Source: Chrysoperla carnea
Lineage: Eukaryota > Arthropoda > Insecta > Neuroptera > Chrysopidae
Length of the DNA: 64,000 bases
Direction of reading: 5' to 3'
Assembly: GCF_905475395.1 (NCBI RefSeq)
Contig: NC_058337.1
Location: 70,452,368 to 70,516,367 of the forward strand
The notes under the pieces are model-generated. The model was not told where the DNA came from. It saw only the letters and a list, made by a program, of their open reading frames with translations, and ran no database searches. The translations under genes were made by a program, and so were the position numbers. Positions 9,116 to 58,207 of the stretch are shown one piece after another. Every line of letters starts with the position of its first letter. Position 1 is the first letter of the stretch.

Positions 9116-9764
9116 CCTTATTTTAAATTTTTACATAGTGTACTATAATTTTCAGGCCTGTGCTATAATTTTACGGCCCTGGTTTCAGAATTTCTTCTCT
9201 GAAATTTGGGAAACTTGATTAACAGCCTCATTAAAGGCTTTGTACACACAATAGTCATGATGATTGACAGGAAAAAATACTCTTTTTAACTTTAAAACTA
9301 TAAGTATTTTTATAAGAAGCAACTACACTTTTTTCCAAATCTGAATGAGTTTAGGTATTACAATAAATATATTAAAAAGAAGTAAGAAATAGTTTCGTGC
9401 GTTGTCCTTTACAAATAATCAATCTTGTTGAATATAAATTATATTTATTGAATGTCGCTTTCTTATAATTCTACACGTAGGTATAAAAGACAGTTTGTTA
9501 GTAGTAGCTTGCTATCCAAAATAATGTTACATTTGCGAATTGGAAGCACAGATGTTATTCGTTTACATTGACATGAGTGGTGTTTACTTAATCAATGGTA
9601 ATCAATCATTTTCTACTCATACATATTTTACACATGTTAAAGTAGGAACCACCAACTATACAGACTTCTGTTTTACTTTTAGTCCAAGAGCCAATGGCCA
9701 AAATTATCATTGTTCCAAGATACCGTAATTTCCTTAAGCAAAAGTTGTTTCAGTTTAAATAACT

Positions 9765-41600: not shown

Positions 41601-44600
41601 GATTCAAGTCGATGCCATGCTGTTATGTTTTTCGGCCTAACATTTTCATTTAAAGTCATTTTGGACGCGTTTGACGATCAAGATGGTTTACGAAAATTAT
41701 ATAATGTAATATCAACATTGCCTATATTATCAACAGATGATGATCATTTACTTTTAAATGATGATGTAGTTTGTGCAGCCCGACAAATTGTTCGTCATGT
41801 TTGTGTCGCATTGAAACGTTATTTGGAAGCACATTTGTACGTACGTAGTGAACAGTTAAAACGATCTGTTGTTCAATTATTACCATATAAGGTAAGGACA
41901 TTGATTTTTTTTAGAATTATGTTGAGAGAATTTACTCAGAGCAAGAGATTTGAAATGTTTTATTGTTCTTTTAGGCAATGTGTAAATTAAATAGTGCTGA
42001 AGATGTTCAAGAACGCATTGATACAATGCTCGAACTTCTACCATATCGAGCACATTGGCCACCAGTTGATGAATTATTACGATTAGGTGCTATTACAATT
42101 TTATTACAAATCATAGCATTCTCATATGAATGGAATTTTGGTGGAAGAGCCGAAACAGTAAAATCAGCATTAGATGTACTTGCAATATGTGCAATAATGC
42201 CACGCGTTCAAATGTTATTCGGAGAACGGGTAGATTTACCTGAAGAAGCGATCACTGTTGGTATAAACATTATTCTAGGAGCAGCTGAAGGTGAAATTGT
42301 TGCTGATCCAGATGTTCAAAAGGCTGCACTTAGTGTAATCGTGAACTGTGTTTGTGCACCGATTCACAGAGTAAGTAATTTCTTAAGTATGAATAATGAA
42401 ACAAATTTATTTAGCTTTTACTATTTTTTTAAGCTTAATTAAAAAAATGTTGTTTATTAATATTTTTGATTTTGTAGCCTGGAGGATCGGTAACACGTTT
42501 TTCAATGGGAATTGGATCACCGAGAAAAAAATCAAATTTACGCAATTCAGAGGAGCTAATACAAAAAGTATGGGAGAGTGTTCGATCCCAAAGCGGTATT
42601 ATGGTGTTGTTACAATTGATGCAAGTTAAAACACCAATTACGGATGCGGATTCCATCCGTACGTTAGCATGTCGTGCATTAGCTGGCTTAGCACGATCGG
42701 ATACTGTAAAACAAATTATTGGAAAGCTACCACTTTTTACTAATGGACAATTGCAAAGTAAGTAAAATATGCGATGTGCTTATAATTTACCTATTCAGTA
42801 ATGAAATTCATTTAACAAAAAGTGATCTACAATCAAAAATTAAGACTTTGGAAATTTCAATTTTGCATTTAGATTTTACAAAAAAATTTTTGAAAGGCAA
42901 GCTCAGATAACTGCATTTATATAAACGTTTATTCCAAAAGCTTATCGATTGTAAAAATTAAAAACCCAGCACTAATCGTATGGGAATTGGCTTACGATCT
43001 TGTAGATCTAAGCATCCTGACCAAAAGTCTCGTATTATGAGCAAATTTGTACGTGATCCAATTCCTATAAGATTAGTGCAGGATCCTTAAATGGAAATTA
43101 ATAACTCTATGTGTTTATTTTATAGATTTAATGCGAACACCAATTTTACAAGAAAAACGCCAAGAACATGTATTATTCCAAAAATATGCGCTCGAGCTTA
43201 TGGAGAAGGTGTCTGGAAATACCAAACATACAGCATCACATGAGATTGATGCATCATTAGCGAATATACATCGTGCTAATGTTGTGGCTCAGACAAAAAT
43301 ACAATTTAATGATAAACAATTGTTACAATTAATACATCAGCATTTGGTTGGACGTGGTTTGAATGAAACAGCTGGAACACTACAACGTGAAGCGCAATTA
43401 AATGCAATTTTACCACCACCAGGTACCATCAATGTTCCAACACCATCAATTGCTAAAAATTTATCAATAGCTGGTAATAATTTTAGTCCTTTACGCTATG
43501 TGCCACCAACTACACCAAGAGTAAGTAGATAATCAGTACTTTTTTATACATTTTTTGGCTTCGGAATCTTTATTTGTAATTTCAAGACACAATATTATGT
43601 AAAAAAAATTTTCACATACGATTTCCTCTGAAGAGAAGCTACAGGGATCTTTCCATTTAGTATGAACTAGTTTGTGTTTGTGTCTTACGCAGAGACATTT
43701 TACGGCACTATTCTTGTAAGAGACGAACCTACATTATGGCGCTGTGGTTGTCAGACAGACAATTAACAGGCACATTGTATTTGAATAATGTATATGCTAA
43801 TATATTATTTTAAATTTAAAAAATGTTTGTTGTACTTTTTTTATTTAAATAATTGCACATTTATGTAGAAGTAATTGTACGGTTGATAATCGCCTTTATA
43901 TGACAGGCACAGTGGTGCACTAAATACGATAATTTTTTTTTCTGTTGTTCGCTTTGAAGAGTTCTGAAATCCAACAATTGTAAATATCACTGACTAGAAT
44001 GTATATATACTATTATTTAATAATAGCATATTTTTCTTTAAAGGCATTAACAATTTAAGCTATTCATACAATTCATTAAAAATCTTCTTACAAAAGAAAG
44101 ATAAATATTTCCTTTTGAAAAGAAAACATTTAACGATAAAGGGACGTTGAGGTAATAATAATAGACTAATAAAGTATCTCGGCCATCTATTGGGCAAAAA
44201 AACAAAAAACAAATATGGGAAATTTTAAATAAATGTCAAAAATAATTTTATTATATTTTTAAAAATTATCAAACAATCTCTTAAAAACTATTTGTAACAA
44301 ATTAAATTAGACATTACTAAGAAAAAATAAGTGTCTATAAAAGTCCAAAATTATGTATGAATAATTGGGTTGATGACTGACATCGAACTTGCCACATACC
44401 CCAACAATGACTTCACTTCTAAACTATCTTTCTCTTTGTTTAATTAGGACTATTGAACGTTCGTTTGCGTACTTCTAAAGATTTTAAAAAACCAACTTCA
44501 CTTTTCTGTCCGTGCAGTGAGAATTCTTTACCAGAATTTTTATTTTTGTATTTCAGTCACGGATACCATACCTCCACCACCATAAAAATACGGCGAACAC

Positions 44601-47600: not shown

Positions 47601-49852
47601 TCCTTACAACTTACATTATGTGGTGTTATAAAATCTTTGCCATTCCATTACATGAAGTGTTTCTTATAGATATAAAAGAAAATTTTATCTATATCAACTG
47701 TTCAGGAGCATATTTATTTTTAGTACAAATGGAAAATTTTATTTATATATTTGTATATTTTAGTTTGCTTACCAAAAGTTGGGTTGTTGGGTAGAATTCA
47801 GTTGTAAAAAAAATTCCAAAAATTTAATAGCTTTTATCTTTAATTTCAGCTACTATAGATGTTAAGAAAAATATATTCAGTTTATGTATCAACAAATACG
47901 ATACACAAATTGCTCTAGTCGAAAATCAAGGTGTATTTGAGTCAGGTCAAGAAAGCGTAGTTCGAATTTACGATGTTGGAAGACGCCGCGATGATGAAGA
48001 TGAACAGGTAAGGTTTTATAAATTAACTACTTCTAAGATCCAAATTATTATGTTTTATTCTTATTTCAGGAAGAAGATGATGATGATGATATGGATAACT
48101 CCGAAGATGGATCTGGATCCGGATCTGAATCTGAAGAAAGTATGTATTTTGAAAATTTTAAATTTGACTGTACTTTTGCCTCTTAATTTGTCTTTTGTTT
48201 AGTTTTCGTGGATTTTGATTTTGTTCGATCTAGAAGTAATATGATCCTTCCTTTCTATTCCAGCTCCAGGTATCCTTTTATTTTTCTTCCTCACTTTTAT
48301 TTAAATCGACGAAAAGTCTTACTTTAATTTCATTTTGTGGTTAAAGAACCCTTATCGGAATATAAACAAAATGAATAAAGAATAAAACTATCGATAAATT
48401 TGAGGCACATATTATATAAAGAAAAACCTTGATTACAACTTATCTGATGTGCAGTTTTATCAATTTTATAATAAAATCTCTTAGTTGTAATCTGTAAAAT
48501 AATGTAAATAACATATAAGGATGAATTTTTTATTTTTTTTTTATTTACCGTATGTTTGAAACGAATACGATAATTCGATAGAGAACAAATTTATGTTACC
48601 ATACCAAACATGAAAACCGCCTGCGGTGTAAATTTAAAAGCAGTCATGGCCAAGCTATTTATAAACATAAATTTCAAATAAATTTCGATTTCTGCCCCAA
48701 TTTCCTAGATCAGTTTTTCGTATATTATAAATACGTATTCCGACTACCAAGTAGTCATCCTCAGTATGAATGCAGTCCGCCACCAAATTAGCTAATTCAT
48801 ACTGATGCTGACTAGAGTTCCATTTATTATCTTCGATAATATTTATATAAATTTCAAAAATTATAATTTAGCCTTAGACCTTAGACCCAAAAAGAGGAGT
48901 GTTATTGAATAAAAAGATCAAGAACAGTCAACAAACTAAATAACTATGATATCAGGTAATCGAAATAGAAAAAAAAAGTAAAATAGAAAAGCCCTCAGAG
49001 TAAAAAAGTAAATAGAAAAGCCCTCAGAGGATAGATGAAAAATCTTGTAAAAATGAGCTTAAAATAGTGCATTCAAAATATAAAAAAGTTATAAAAATTG
49101 CAATTATATCTGTGGATTATAAGGGGATATAAATTGAAGTAAAAACTATTTTCTACAACTTTGTATATAAATTACAATAGTCCTTTTCGATATCCACTTG
49201 GTAGCATAGAAGTTTTTGCAAAATTTTATCATTGGTACATTCTAATTTTATCATACATCAGCAAAAGCTATATTTTTCTTCAGAAAAAAAAAATGGTATT
49301 CAAATTTAAAGCCCACCATTTTTCGTAAAAAGGCATGAATGAAATTCTTTTGTTTGATAACAACAAAGTCATTTTCTATATACCGAGAGTGTTCTTTATA
49401 AAATAACTTGTAAGAAAAGTTAACTGGGAAATTAAATTTTGTTTTCTGTCTTTATAGATAGCATAAATCTATTAATCGATGCGGTAGCTGCAGCAAGTTC
49501 ACGTAGGCGCCGTAGACGGCGTAATTCACGGAGACGAACTAGTGGTGGGGGAGGTGGAGGAAATGGTGCTGCTGAGGGTGGTTTACGTGTTGCACCTGCG
49601 GCTAATGATAATGAAAATAATATTGCGGGTGAAAATGAAAATAACGCAGGAAATGATAACCAAAATGAGAATAACGAAGAACAAAACGAAGAAAATAATG
49701 ACGACGATAACGAAGATGATGATGATGATGACGATGATGACGGTGAATGGCAATCATTGTCTAGCAATGATGATTACGATGACGATGGTGGTGCATTTTC
49801 TATGTCAGATACATCGGACATGGATGCGTTAGAGGATCTACTATTCGAATAA
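35690..49852 (+). CDS. mahj: DDB1- and CUL4-associated factor 1 (VprBP / mahjong)
   Basis: Eighteen exons: 35690-35787, 36357-36507, 37241-37378, 37868-38297, 38730-38842, 39814-40257, 41358-41491, 41567-41891, 41975-42370, 42478-42757, 43126-43520, 44557-45162, 45254-45465, 45527-45611, 46345-46753, 47850-48007, 48070-48139 and 49458-49852. Sum 4839 nt, 1612 residues (human 1507). DCAF1 is the substrate receptor of CUL4-DDB1 and also scaffolds other E3 ligases; the fly gene is tied to cell competition through Lgl. Seen: a helical/Armadillo-like N-terminal half ([42 protein letters not shown]); a LisH motif at about 897-930; SIITEYL before WD40 repeats (about 1090-1440); WDLR at about 1347; [13 protein letters not shown]; and an acidic tail ending EDLLFE. 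A run of seven arginines then six glycines interrupts the acidic tail. The first WDxR box reads WDAV. The start is the first in-frame ATG. AATAAA lies at 49889-49894. Confidence 0.96.
36640..36780. other. GC-richer patch in DCAF1 intron 2
   Basis: About 140 bp with clearly higher G+C than the surrounding intron and stop codons in the frames I checked. It could be an old insertion or a SINE-like relic; I do not recognise it. Confidence 0.3.
37588..37642 (-). other. tRNA-like fragment in DCAF1 intron 3
   Basis: On the minus strand a stem-loop GCTTGC-CGCGAAA-GCAAGC is followed by CAGTCCGAGATTCGATTTCTG, like an anticodon arm and then a T-arm with a B-box-like GATTCGATT. The acceptor stem and a clear D-arm are missing, and U33 is absent. 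It is probably a tRNA pseudogene or a scrap of a tRNA-derived SINE. Confidence 0.35.
38390..38720 (-). repeat. GTCTGTC-core dispersed repeat part in DCAF1 intron 4
   Basis: TGTTAGTGCTTGCATTATTT and following sequence match 7505-7570, and TTTTGGAGAAAATGTACACC through CAAACAAAAGTTGTTTATTT match 18690-18820. This shows that the two segments belong to one longer family. It ends about 10 bp before exon 5, so the insertion lies right against the acceptor region. Confidence 0.7.
42966..43083. mobile_element. Short foldback element in DCAF1 intron 10
   Basis: GCACTAATCGTATGGGAATTGG at one end and CCAATTCCTATAAGATTAGTGC at the other are inverted copies with few mismatches around a ~60-bp centre. It is MITE-like and non-coding, and ends 42 bp before the next exon. 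Confidence 0.65.
48264..48269 (+). other. Possible 6-nt microexon of DCAF1
   Basis: CTCCAG sits between a strong acceptor (TCCTTCCTTTCTATTCCAG) and a plausible donor (GTATCC), inside the intron between the last two main exons. Adding it keeps the frame and turns ...E-E-N-S-I... into ...E-E-T-P-D-S-I.... Inclusion is an inference from splice sites only. Confidence 0.35.
48681..48830 (-). repeat. Dispersed repeat with degraded hammerhead-like core, copy 2
   Basis: Same sequence as 960-1140: TTTCGATTTCTGCCCCAATT, TACGTATTCCGACTACCAAG and TAGTCATCCTCAGTATGAAT. On the minus strand stem II (GACTAC/GTAGTC) is intact, but the core reads CTGAGGA and GGAA instead of CTGATGA and GAAA, so self-cleavage would be lost. 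It lies in the last DCAF1 intron. Confidence 0.6.
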
Positions 49853-52875: not shown

Positions 52876-55800
52876 ATGGTAAGTAAACAATTATTTATTT
52901 ACTGAATTTGATTTTATTTTTAAATTGTGCATATGAATTCGTTAAATTTTTGAGATTTAGTTACTTATTTTGTCATAAAATAAAAGAATTGGGCCACGTG
53001 TTTAATGTCGGCATGGCGTATGTTATGACTAAAAATTGGTAATATTTAATTAAGTTCAAACGTGTTTAACTAATTTAGGTTTAAAAAATATTACTTTATT
53101 CTTATATTATTTATTTTTAACTTTGTACTGGCTGGAGGTGGACGTAATATTAAGTTCTGACAGTCTTGTCAATAAAGAATTCGATTTGTACCATGCTTTC
53201 TAAAGCATGGTAGAAGAAAAACTCGTATAGCTAGGATAGTTAGTCATTATTTGTGAAGAATATTTAAAAGTTTATTTTGTTAATTTATTTTTATTATTTT
53301 AGGCATTGTGCGCTGCGCGACCGCTAGTCAGCGTATATTCTGAAAAAAATGAAGCAATTAAAGGCAACACTTTAGCATTGCCCGCTGTATTCAAAGCACC
53401 AATTCGTCCAGATGTTGTGAGCTTTGTTCATCAACAACTTGGTTTCAATCATCGTCAACCATACTGTGTAAGCAAAGAAGCTGGTCACCAAACATCAGCT
53501 GAATCATGGGGTACGGGACGTGCTGTAGCTCGTATTCCACGTGTGCGTGGTGGTGGTACTCATCGTTCAGGTCAGGGTGCTTTCGGTAACATGTGTCGTG
53601 GTGGACGTATGTTTGCACCAACCAAACCATGGCGCCGTTGGCATAGACGTGTTAATGTAAACCAACGTCGTTATGCTATTGTTAGTGCTATTGCTGCCAG
53701 TGGTGTACCCGCATTAGTTCAAAGCAAAGGTATTACAATTTAGATTTAAAGTTCCGTCTTCAAGAGTTACTTAATAGTGGATATTTTGTAGGTCACGTAG
53801 TTGATAACATCCCAGAATTACCGTTAGTGGTATCAGATAAAGTTCAGGAGCTCACAAAGACTAAACAAGCTGTGATCTTCTTGCGTCGTATTAAAGCATG
53901 GGCCGACATTCAAAAGGTAAAACATTTATTTGATATTTTAAATAAATCAAGTGAGATTTATGATTGCAACTATAATTGATCAAAACTATTTTCACATAAT
54001 TTATGATTTTGGTCGCAAATATATTTCATTTTAAAAAAGTAAATTACGAAAAAGTGGTGATTTCTTTATCGTATAAAGTTATCAGTTTCCAATTCGGTTT
54101 TTAAAAAAAGGAATAAAATCGAATTTAATACGATTTGTTATATGCTTAGTGAACGTTATTTCTAATACTTAATTCATTCGAAACTATCTTTGTCAATGTT
54201 AATTTGTTCATTGAAAACACGGATCTAGTAATTATAGTATGGATGTAGTATAAAGTCCTACTTTAGACGAGGGGGGTGTATTACTCAGGGAAGCAATGTG
54301 CCTACTTTTGATTGGTTAGTTAATAGTTGTAACACTAGGATTGAAGATTGAATATTCACTAAATTGAATAGAATATTATTGCGTTTAGGTTACTTATATC
54401 GTTGACAAAATTGTTTTAAAACAAGCATAAATACTTCACATATTGTCTTTACAAATTTTACATTTCTTTTGAATATAATATTATTTATGTTGTCCACATA
54501 CGTCAACCATATGTCAAACATGTTTCAAGCCTTTTTTAAAGAAGGCTTCGAGCATACTTTCAGCATGCGCCTAGTTAACAGCCAATAGAAAGTAGGCACA
54601 ATGATAACCTGCCTCTTCCCTCTGAGTGAGACTCATCCCACTCGGTTATACTCCATCCCTTTTAAAATATTCCTATATCCATGGTTGAAAAGTATGTCTA
54701 CGGCGTCTAAAGAGGAATTTGCTGAGCTACGTGCAATTAAAACACTACGGATTTTCACTAAATACAATAGACTTTGTTTGATAGTATGAAAAATGTCTTT
54801 ATTAATATCGGTACAATTATCTGACGAAAAATATTGGGTTTTTTTATTCAAAACAACTCATTTTGTTGTTGTTACGTGATGGAAAAAGGTTTAGATGCGC
54901 TGTGATAACACAAAAAGGTAGTACATACTTCGTATTGCAAGTACTGAAATGCCATTTGTATATGAGTTTTAGTGATTTGCCTACAACTTTTTCTGTGTAA
55001 CATCCTGCATTTATTTTTACGTTATCAAAATTTTTTTAGTTTGAAAATAGTATCATATGATGAGAAATTTCCTGAGCACTGGGTTATGATTTTACAATGA
55101 TTACCTGTTGACACCTGAATAATAACTCGTTTAAATTGATAATAAAATTAAATTTGATTCAAACTAATTATTTTGTTTCTTCTTTTTTTGTATAGGTATA
55201 CAAATCCCAAAGAATTCGTGCTGGAAAAGGTAAAATGCGTAATCGTCGTCGTATTCAACGTCGTGGTCCACTTATTGTGTACCATAAGGATCAAGTAAGT
55301 ATTGAATTTGATTTATAAATATTAACGTCCATAGAAATAAATAATAAATCTATTATCATTCTTAAAGTTAGTACGTGAAATATGACTAATGAACTTGTGC
55401 TTTTACATCGACATACGTTTGAAACAAAACAATTTTTTTTCAGAACAAAATAATTTAACGAAACTACGAATGAGCTACTTTAAAATTACAATAAATTTCA
55501 AAGCTGTTTTTCACATCTCCATTTTTATTTTTTAAATGGCAAAGCAAGCCATAGACTATAGTTCATGTTAAAATTATTCGGTGAAATGGCCCATCAGGAA
55601 TCATGTTGAAAAAGATCCTCCTATATGTAAAAGTAAGTTAAAGCACCATGCCGCAAAGAAATAAATCTGGTAACTTCGGTACAGGAAGTTAAAAAACATT
55701 TGATCTCGCGTCAATTTCCAAAGCCTTACGTGAAGTTCTATACAGCATTTATGTAATTTATTTCGAATACTTATGCAGAGTTAATATCCAGCAACGCCGT

Positions 55801-58207
55801 ACATATTTGCTGGTTTAGGGATGGTGCTTAAACTTATTTTTACATATAGGAGTTTCTTTTTCAACATGATTCATGGTGGGCCATTTCACCCGAAAAATTT
55901 GAGTATTTGGTATTGTAGTCTTATAATACGATTTATTATAACCCTAATTTTGATCATGAGATGGGGTGAAATTATTTTGAAATAAGTTCGCATTACCTTA
56001 GTTTGCACATAAACATTAAATGCTTGAAGTTCTCTTTGTTTTTTTACTTTGTTTTTGAAAGCATAGAAAAAAGGCGCAATTCCATTGAAGCAACACTGAA
56101 CGACATATCGCTCGATATTGGATGCCAAGTGTTGCCTCTTGAGGCGTGCGACAATGTGGCACAAAATTCAATTAAATGTCGCACGCGGACTTGTTGCCCC
56201 ATGTCGTATGCGCTTTGTTGTACATGAGTGTGGCATGCGGCTAAAGGAGACATATTTTTTTATCGCTTTGTGTTCCTTCTATTGAAAGACTGTGTATAGC
56301 ATGCGTCAATATCGCATGCTACATGTCGCTTCAGTGGAATTGCGCTTTTAGACTAACGTTAGGTTCTTTTAGGCATAACCCAAGTACCATTTTTTGTAGA
56401 AATTTTTTTAAATTAATTTTTTTTGCAAAAACAAATGCAGAAAATTTACAAGTATGATAATAGAATTATTTAAAATGATGATCCTTTTGGTCCGTGTTTA
56501 TGAACACTCTTGATTTTAAACTTAACCATTTCTGAAGTTAAATTTTATCCGTTTGAAAATAAATACTTCAAAAAACGTATTTTACAATGAAATAAATTTT
56601 TTCATAGGGTCTTCGTCGTGCATTCCGTAATATTCCAGGAATTGACTTAATAAACGTTGAACGTTTGAATGTTTTAAAACTTGCACCTGGTGGTCATGTA
56701 GGCCGTTTTATAATTTGGACAGAAAGTGCATTTAAACGATTAGACCAATTGTATGGAACATGGAAACGTACAGCTGTAGCCAAAAAAGGTTACAATCTTC
56801 CACAACCTAAAATGGCTAACACTGATTTGGCACGTTTATTGAAAGCTGATGAAATTCGTAAAGTTCTACGTGCTCCAAGGTTTGTATTTACTTGTTTAAC
56901 TTTTTACTAGCACAGTTCTCAATTATTAGAGCGTTCTCTTAAATATCAATTTGTAAATTTAGTTTTAAAGAAATCGGAAAAATAGATGCTTAATCCCACT
57001 TAAGCGTTTTGTTTCCTGAATCGTTAACGAAACCCTTTAGCTTTAGTAAAACTATCAATTCATATGATGAATACAATTATTATTCAGAGCATTGGACGAT
57101 GAATAATTAAGTGATTACATAATTGACACCTGAGTTAACCAAATAATCAAGAAAATGCCAGTTAAATTTTTTTGATTCCAGAATATTAATAGGTTTATTT
57201 TTTAATTGCAGGAAGAAGGTTGTACGCAGTGTACGCAAACTTAATCCATTGAAGAACACACGTGCACTTTTGAAACTCAATCCATATGCTGCTGTATTAA
57301 GACGCAAAGCAATCATTGCCCAATTGAAACGTAAAGAAGAACGTGCCGCATTATTAAGAAAGAAACTTGGTGTGAGTATATTTAGTATATTTTATACCAT
57401 TTGCATATTTTGAAATGATGAGTTTATTGGTCCGTGTTTATGAATATTTTTGATTTTAACATACCAATACTGAGCTTTTTTTTAAAAAAACGTCTTAATT
57501 ATTTTTATTCCTCAGTAAAGAGATGATTAATTGTATTTGTGTTTTATGATTAGGAACCAGAACCTGAAGAAGCAAAACGAGCAGCCTTACATAAAGAAAA
57601 GAGAAAGTTAGCAATTAAAAAAGCCAAGGCACTTAGACCTAAAAAACCAAAAGTAAAGAAAGTTGACAGAATAGCTGCTAAAAAAGTAGCCTCAGCCGCT
57701 AAACGTGCTGAATTTGCTGAAAAACGAGCTAAAATCTTAGCTGAAAAGAAAGGAGAACGAGCCGCTGCTAAAGCTGCAGTTATTGCTAAACGTAAAGCTA
57801 AAGAAGCATTATTAGCTGAAAAACAAAAGAAGAGTGAAGAACTTAGAGCTGCTGCCAAAGTAAAAGCCGAAGAAAAAGCAGTACGTAAAGCAGCATTAAG
57901 AGCAAAAGCTGCTGAAGCTAAAAAGAAGGCACGCGAAGAAGCAGCCAAAAAAGCCGCAGCCTTAGCAAAAGAAAAAGCAGCAGCTGCAGCAGCCGCCGCC
58001 GCTGAGAAAGCAAAAAAAGCTGCCACAGCAAAAAAATCTGCAACTTCAGCAAAAGGTAAAGGAGCAGCACCCGCCAAAGGTGCAGCACCCAAAAAAGACG
58101 CAAAACCAGCACCAGCCAAGGGAGCGAAACCAGCAGCAAAACCAGCTCCACAAAAATCTGCTTCAACAAAATCAGCACCAGCAAAACCGGCGCCAGCCAA
58201 GAAGTAG
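52876..58207 (+). CDS. RpL4: 60S ribosomal protein L4 (uL4) with long Lys/Ala tail
   Basis: Seven exons: 52876-52878 (ATG only), 53303-53729, 53792-53916, 55196-55294, 56608-56879, 57212-57371 and 57554-58207. They sum to 1740 nt, 579 residues. uL4 reaches into the peptide exit tunnel of the large ribosomal subunit. Seen: [17 protein letters not shown]; the universal loop with [55 protein letters not shown]; and [20 protein letters not shown]. These are all in place up to about residue 362. The last exon codes a 217-residue tail made almost only of Lys, Ala, Glu, Arg and Pro, ending in [10 protein letters not shown]. Human RPL4 has 427 residues and fly about 400, so the tail is unusually long and resembles a histone H1 tail. 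Introns 3-6 each contain a C/D snoRNA-like unit. AATAAA lies at 58287-58292. Confidence 0.97.
54295..54602. mobile_element. MITE with ~30-bp inverted ends, in RpL4 intron 3
   Basis: AATGTGCCTACTTTTGATTG at the left and its inverted, slightly changed copy ending in AAGTAGGCACAAT at the right bound about 308 bp of non-coding DNA. Pairing continues as TTAGTTAATA/TAGTTAACA. The family is not recognised. Confidence 0.7.
55053..55122 (+). ncRNA. Box C/D snoRNA candidate (family B), RpL4 intron 3
   Basis: Box C ATGATGA at 55057-55063 and box D CTGA at 55115-55118, with internal C'-like TGATTTT. Box D ends 77 nt before the 3' splice site. The unit shares TCATATGATGA, GAGCAYTGG, TGATTAC and TTGACACCTGA with the unit in intron 5, so the two are paralogues. 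The terminal stem is weak, and I could not identify an rRNA target. Confidence 0.65.
55570..55900. mobile_element. MITE with ~80-bp inverted repeats, in RpL4 intron 4
   Basis: GGTGAAATGGCCCATCAGGA with following sequence and its inverted copy (CATGGTGGGCCATTTCACCC) form arms of about 80 bp. They include TCATGTTGAAAAAG and CTCCTATATGTAAAA, around a ~170-bp centre without coding capacity. The arms are well matched, so it may be fairly young. Confidence 0.85.
56068..56350. mobile_element. MITE with AAAAGCGCAATTCC ends, in RpL4 intron 4
   Basis: AAAAGGCGCAATTCCATTGA at the left pairs with TCAGTGGAATTGCGCTTTTA at the right. The inside is rich in CGACAT/ATGTCG and GCATGC motifs. It is about 283 bp, non-coding, and lies about 120 bp upstream of the U18 unit in the same intron. 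Confidence 0.75.
56468..56543 (+). ncRNA. Box C/D snoRNA U18 (SNORD18), RpL4 intron 4
   Basis: Box C ATGATGA at 56475-56481, guide TTGGTCCGTGTTT at 56487-56499, D'-like ATGA directly after it, C'-like TGATTTT, and box D CTGA at 56532-56535. A six-pair terminal stem (ATTTAA with TTAAAT) closes the unit. The guide equals that of human U18, which pairs with AAACACGGACCAA in 28S rRNA and directs 2'-O-methylation of an adenosine (A1313 in human). The fifth base before D' pairs with the expected A. Box D ends 72 nt before the 3' splice site. Vertebrate U18 copies also lie in RPL4 introns. Confidence 0.93.
57060..57140 (+). ncRNA. Box C/D snoRNA candidate (family B), RpL4 intron 5
   Basis: Box C ATGATGA at 57064-57070 and box D CTGA at 57130-57133; box D ends 78 nt before the 3' splice site. 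It is a paralogue of the unit in intron 3, with the shared blocks GAGCATTGG, TGATTAC and TTGACACCTGA. The sequence before the D'-like ATGA differs in its last three bases from the intron 3 copy, so the two may guide different sites or one may be decaying. The target is unknown. Confidence 0.65.
57405..57483 (+). ncRNA. Box C/D snoRNA U18 (SNORD18), RpL4 intron 6
   Basis: Box C ATGATGA at 57415-57421, guide TTGGTCCGTGTTT at 57427-57439, D'-like ATGA, C'-like TGATTTT and box D CTGA at 57470-57473. This is the second U18 copy, with the same guide base for base. Box D ends 80 nt before the 3' splice site. The terminal stem is weaker than in the intron 4 copy. Confidence 0.92.

Follow-up and report, generated by a model that had tools for sequence, protein, structure and literature searches.

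The locus lies in a 64 kb window of Chrysoperla carnea DNA (the whole stretch of 64,000 nucleotides that was analyzed, with a G+C content of 29%), in which the gene for ribosomal protein L4, RpL4 (uL4), runs on the + strand from its ATG at 52876 to its stop at 58207. Seven exons join into one spliced frame that is open to the stop and specifies a 579-aa product that ends in a long tail rich in Lys and Ala. The exon 2 frame matches Pfam Ribosomal_L4, and the conserved part of the protein aligns with other L4 proteins in a single stretch. The best PDB chains for this part are 4v6w_CC (E = 1.6e-182, 609.8 bits), from an entry that we take to be a Drosophila ribosome, and 6xu6_CC (608.5 bits), both of them 60S ribosomal protein L4, with the next-ranked chain at 565.3. 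The entry 6XU6 is likewise described as a Drosophila ribosome (PMC13228274). Comparison of the RpL4 protein with viral contigs gave 10 pattern stretches, none of which was confirmed as a relative. Neighboring reading frames between 11739 and 30857 match sulfotransferase, golgin and N-terminal proline methyltransferase family proteins. The introns of interest, all on the + strand, are intron 3 (53917–55195, 1279 nt, phase 0), intron 4 (55295–56607, 1313 nt, phase 0, with two inverted-repeat elements inside), intron 5 (56880–57211, 332 nt, phase 2) and intron 6 (57372–57553, 182 nt, phase 0).

Each of these four introns carries one box C/D unit, composed of an ATGATGA box C and a CTGA box D, as a preliminary description of this DNA had proposed. 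In introns 3, 4, 5 and 6, respectively, box C starts at 55057, 56475, 57064 and 57415 and box D ends at 55118, 56535, 57133 and 57473, giving C/D cores of 62, 61, 70 and 59 nt, and in boxes and length all four match the box C/D type. A search of the whole window for the strict motif pair (RTGATGA followed by CTGA, with a span of 47 to 91 nt) returned eight pairs on the + strand and one on the − strand. The RpL4 units account for four of the eight; of the others, three lie at 48077–48083 with starts 3 nt apart and one lies at 9257. In 20 shuffled versions of the window the mean was 1.1 pairs on the + strand (range 0–4). RpL4 introns 1 and 2 contain no RTGATGA/CTGA pair.

The distances from box D to the 3′ splice site, measured at 77, 72, 78 and 80 nt in introns 3 to 6, reproduce exactly those reported before. 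Intron length ranges from 182 to 1313 nt, and the distance to the 5′ splice site ranges widely with it, whereas the distance to the 3′ splice site changes little; if units were placed uniformly in such introns, a spread of at most 8 nt would arise with a probability roughly estimated at 8e-6. The branch point usually lies some 25 to 35 nt before the exon, and with a branch point in that position the RpL4 distances would fit an optimum of about 50 nt. A review puts the best position for C/D snoRNAs about 50 nt before the branch point (PMC8162545); the earlier suggestion that the spacing, here 72 to 80 nt, is of the kind favored in splicing-coupled C/D snoRNA processing is supported by the optimum described in that source. 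The terminal stems of the four units reach best scores over seven positions of 5, 6, 3.5 and 2.5, and random flanks reach 5 in 17% and 4 in 55% of cases, so that the stems are suggestive at most; the RNA folding energies of the units are no better than those of shuffles.

The units in introns 4 (56475–56535) and 6 (57415–57473) had been described as copies of U18, and a covariance-model search for SNORD18/U18 was proposed as a check. In that search the intron 6 copy passes, with 47.1 bits for Rfam snoU18 (gathering cut-off 47), and by this margin of 0.1 bit is the sole above-cut-off Rfam match in the whole window, but the intron 4 copy remains below, with 38.3 bits for SNORD18 (gathering cut-off 41, E = 1.2e-4 for 5.6 kb searched). 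For rRNA pairing, 28S contigs L002, L003 and L004 were taken from bacterial MAG records and are confirmed by Rfam as eukaryotic LSU rRNA; L003, in whose numbering all target positions are given, is a partial eukaryotic 28S and not C. carnea rRNA. The 18S contigs (L005 and L006) are incomplete or divergent. The intron 4 antisense element TTTTGGTCCGTGTTT (56485–56499), followed by a D′ box ATGA at 56500–56503, forms a 15-nt duplex with 13 Watson–Crick pairs with AAACACGGACCAAGG in L003 and L002. The intron 6 element TTGGTCCGTGTTT (57427–57439), with its D′ box ATGA at 57440–57443, forms 13 Watson–Crick pairs with AAACACGGACCAA in the same two contigs, and AAACACGGACCAA is the 28S stretch paired by both copies, with 13 Watson–Crick pairs each. 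Counting N+5 from the D′ ATGA selects the same A for both copies (L003 position 900), with two further, weaker N+5 placements in L003 for the intron 6 copy; in this test 0 of 300 and 1 of 300 shuffles were as good. Together, the Rfam scores and the antisense elements of 13 to 15 nt in both copies uphold the U18 assignment.

The two U18 copies are also clearly alike, with a similarity score of 48 (best of 1000 shuffles, 23) and a match of 51 nt at 84% identity (E = 1e-12) when introns 4 and 6 are compared as a whole. Their D-side halves differ, and therefore only the D′ guide looks kept. The antisense element and its position beside D′ are those of U18/SNORD18 (Rfam RF01159, RF00093); the RF01159 consensus has the same D′ ATGA as the copies here, whereas the RF00093 consensus has CUGA, and one copy here falls below the Rfam cut-off. 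By way of the U18 sequence, the predicted target can be matched to a published site, Am in 28S AAACAmCGGACC, which would be the A of AAACACGGACC; a published table gives U18 as the guide of an Am for yeast, human and Arabidopsis (PMC8817022). An 18-mer of U18 was found in one viral contig (L001) and was read as a chance match. At 42451–42473, 23 nt resemble a segment of the U18 unit in intron 6 with 96% identity, probably also by chance.

The remaining two units, B3 in intron 3 (55057–55118) and B5 in intron 5 (57064–57133), both on the + strand, constitute a second family, here called B. That they are related to each other, as the preliminary description had it, is confirmed by a B3–B5 similarity score of 28 (best of 1000 shuffles, 22), and the four comparisons of a B unit with a U18 unit are ordinary (an equal or higher score in 375, 418, 298 and 78 of 1000 shuffles). 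Restricted to the part 3′ of D′, the B3–B5 score is still 19, against a best of 18 in 2000 shuffles. As the likeness exceeds that of shuffles, including the part 3′ of D′, the two are probably copies of one unit rather than products of convergence on one target. In the whole-intron comparison of introns 3 and 5 the match covers 75 columns at 71% (E = 0.05), which is weak alone because unlike intron pairs give short matches down to E = 0.017. Both copies share a box D-side stretch, TGATTAC...TTGACAC, adjoining box D (TGATTAC...TTGACACCTGA; 55098–55118 and 57112–57133), which could be a second guide or a constrained C′ region. With the box D-side elements considered as guides, the N+5 rule gives one 9-pair placement in L003 for B3 and none of at least 9 pairs for B5.

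Both B units pair with 28S rRNA next to a D′ box. The B3 antisense element GAGCACTGGGT (55074–55084; D′ box ATGA at 55086–55089) is 11 nt long and forms 10 Watson–Crick pairs and one G-U pair with GCCCAGTGCTC in L003. The B5 element TATTCAGAGCATTGG (57081–57095; D′ box ATGA at 57099–57102) forms a 15-nt duplex of 13 Watson–Crick and two G-U pairs with CCAGTGCTCTGAATG in L003. For B3 and B5 alike the top-ranked antisense run in that contig lies at a single site (2563 and 2565), and if ATGA is taken as the D′ box, as it is for the two U18 units, N+5 selects the same C, at 2566, for both; B3 has two further, weaker N+5 placements in L003. In the divergent LSU of L002, B3 pairs over 15 nt (12 Watson–Crick) with an apparently equivalent stretch, and the best runs of B5 are elsewhere than at the site equivalent to that in L003; L004 is without the family B site. 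Antisense runs in a reversed 28S decoy comprise 8 to 9 pairs at most. A laxer test by run length, with the U18 copies as positive control (20 and 17 of 1000 shuffles as good), gave 458 of 1000 shuffles for B3 and 23 of 1000 for B5. Since run length alone was too lax, as the B3 value indicates, the N+5 test was added.

We considered whether the B units could be C/D units, decayed or orphan, that have no target in rRNA, their complementarity to 28S being due to chance. The B3 duplex taken alone is indeed unremarkable, with 50 of 300 shuffles as good in the N+5 test, that of B5 is fair (7 of 300), and neither copy is accepted by any Rfam model. Set against this, both copies choose a common nucleotide, which shuffled B3/B5 pairs do in 30 of 90,000 cases (N+5 test), and in the laxer test 2 of 1000 shuffles had a site at which B3 and B5 each reached 10 pairs. 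The boxes and the spacing of the B units are intact, and the chosen C fits a known methylation site at which the snR76 consensus guide stands in the same register. An origin of the 28S pairing in chance is very improbable in our judgment.

Family B, which had been left unnamed, can now be named by its 28S target and is best read as a snR76/HBII-180-type guide. The designation refers to a functional counterpart, judged by target and register, and implies no common descent. In both copies N+5 falls on the C of 28S GCCCAGTGCTC, which fits as the snR76/HBII-180 site. The Rfam snR76 consensus (RF01209) reads GCACUGGGCA followed by CUGA and B3 reads GCACTGGGTT followed by ATGA, in the same register; the consensus places GCACUGGG, two bases and then the D′ box, as B3 does. 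The B3 assignment draws on its boxes, guide, N+5 nucleotide and snR76 consensus register, and that of B5 on its boxes, guide and N+5 nucleotide. We take HBII-180 to be SNORD88 and the snR76/HBII-180 site to be C2197 in yeast and C3680 in human, and Arabidopsis C2198 is presumably the snR76 site as well. For the C at L003 2566, the spacings to neighboring methylations agree in five of five checks, two drawn from Neurospora (PMC2780460) and three from Arabidopsis (PMC8053127), as compared with one and two of five for the two preceding Cs. In the Neurospora source, Cm2159 is the snR76/HBII-180 counterpart, with Gm2250 (its rRNA unlabeled in the source passage) and Am2288 further on, and the guide's D′ element, at 10 nt, is as short as the one in B3 (PMC2780460); the Arabidopsis methylations are C2198, A2215, A2221 and G2237 (PMC8053127).

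Family B shares with snR76/HBII-180 the target C and the guide register beside D′, and differs from the snR76 model of 101 in its shorter cores (62 and 70 nt), in its ATGA D′ box and in giving no significant covariance-model match. No Rfam covariance model was accepted for B3, for which snR76 scores 14.3 bits (cut-off 55, E = 0.88) in an alignment that is out of register; several other C/D models score above it, and the snR76 alignment is no evidence by itself. For B5 again none was accepted, the best being snoR18 at 23.5 (cut-off 55), and snR76 was absent. The host gene differs too, family B being in RpL4 and the chicken guide assigned to the same site (GGgCD10) being listed in other host genes (PMC2653536).

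The vertebrate gene offers a close comparison, and with it another candidate for family B. According to Table 1 of a chicken survey, two RPL4 introns (1 and 3) host U16 and three (2, 5 and 6) host U18 (PMC2653536), so that several copies of U18 in different introns of this host, and two guide families interleaved in its introns, are common to chicken and C. carnea. An interleaved pair in RPL4 thus has a precedent, with a different partner, U16 having an 18S target and the snR76-type guide a 28S target. From the chicken arrangement one might propose that family B is U16 and that the alternation is the ancestral U16/U18 pattern. However, the target of U16 is an A of 18S, reached by a 5′ element (PMC2653536), whereas the antisense elements of the two B copies point to a C of 28S; no U16 model is among the Rfam matches listed for B3 or B5 up to E = 10, each list omitting one same-clan match of lower score; and the B cores of 62 and 70 nt compare with 124 nt for the chicken U16 entry, where predicted lengths are too long by up to about 20 nt (PMC2653536). 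We consider an identity of B with U16 highly improbable and retain the snR76-type assignment. In Drosophila, 27 cytoplasmic ribosomal protein genes are reported to host snoRNAs in their introns, RpL4 not being named in the source passages (PMC2246290). Among the literature matches listed, none is a paper on insect RpL4 snoRNAs, the Drosophila catalogues being beyond the reach of the search.

The order of the units along introns 3 to 6 is B-U18-B-U18, and from this it had been suggested that a two-intron block carrying B and U18 together was duplicated within the gene, or that the units were copied twice. Beyond the order itself, the data do not support duplication of a block. Block duplication would double an exon, and the exons concerned are unrelated: for the exon 4 and exon 6 peptides 702 of 1000 shuffles score as high, and for those of exons 3 and 5, 189 of 1000. 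Whole-intron comparison of the like pairs yields one long match each, which is the snoRNA unit, and otherwise only short matches, with no extended similarity found outside the units. The phases disagree as well: introns 3 and 4 are both in phase 0, but introns 5 and 6 are in phases 2 and 0. Duplication of a block thus seems most unlikely, and what remains is the copying of single units, or copying old enough for the flanks to have decayed. In chicken, almost all snoRNA paralogs were traced to intragenic duplication (PMC2653536).

Taken together, it is very likely, as far as DNA sequence can tell, that RpL4 introns 3 to 6 encode four C/D guides, two copies each of U18 and of a snR76-type guide, that are processed with splicing. 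From the observed intron map, boxes, spacing, two family relationships, rRNA complementarity and register, we infer expression, processing, protein binding and methylation for the four units. Production of the snoRNAs would be coupled to splicing of the RpL4 pre-mRNA, with the C/D proteins assembling on each unit at its distance of 72 to 80 nt from the 3′ splice site; debranching of the intron and trimming would then leave the snoRNA. Both guides would act from box D′, the copies in introns 4 and 6 as U18 directing Am in 28S AAACAmCGGACC, and those in introns 3 and 5 as snR76/HBII-180-type guides directing Cm in 28S GCCCmAGTGCTC. We regard as rather doubtful a fuller scenario in which RpL4 of this lineage kept U18, the second snoRNA became a snR76-type 28S guide in place of the vertebrate U16, one large-subunit protein gene thereby supplies duplicate guides for two large-subunit methylations, and the box D-side element of B could serve as a second guide.

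The RpL4 units are a clean new example of a familiar intron-hosted guide arrangement and are not new in kind. They supply a probable guide, missed by sequence models, for a widely shared 28S methylation. The main use of the locus would be in annotation and in the study of snoRNA movement between introns. It also shows intron-hosted guides staying at a constant spacing from the splice site in introns that otherwise differ in length and accumulate repeats.

Three inverted-repeat elements were observed in the two long introns. In intron 4, a large foldback inverted repeat at 55570–55900 has 83-nt arms that are 87% complementary and is nearly all self-complementary (70% over 348 columns), and a second, MITE-like element at 56070–56349 has 26-nt inverted repeats (88%); neither has a second copy in the window at E ≤ 1e-3. 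A weaker inverted repeat with 41-nt arms (73%) is present in intron 3 at 54286–54611. All three elements lie upstream of the snoRNAs, leaving the interval between box D and the exon free of them.
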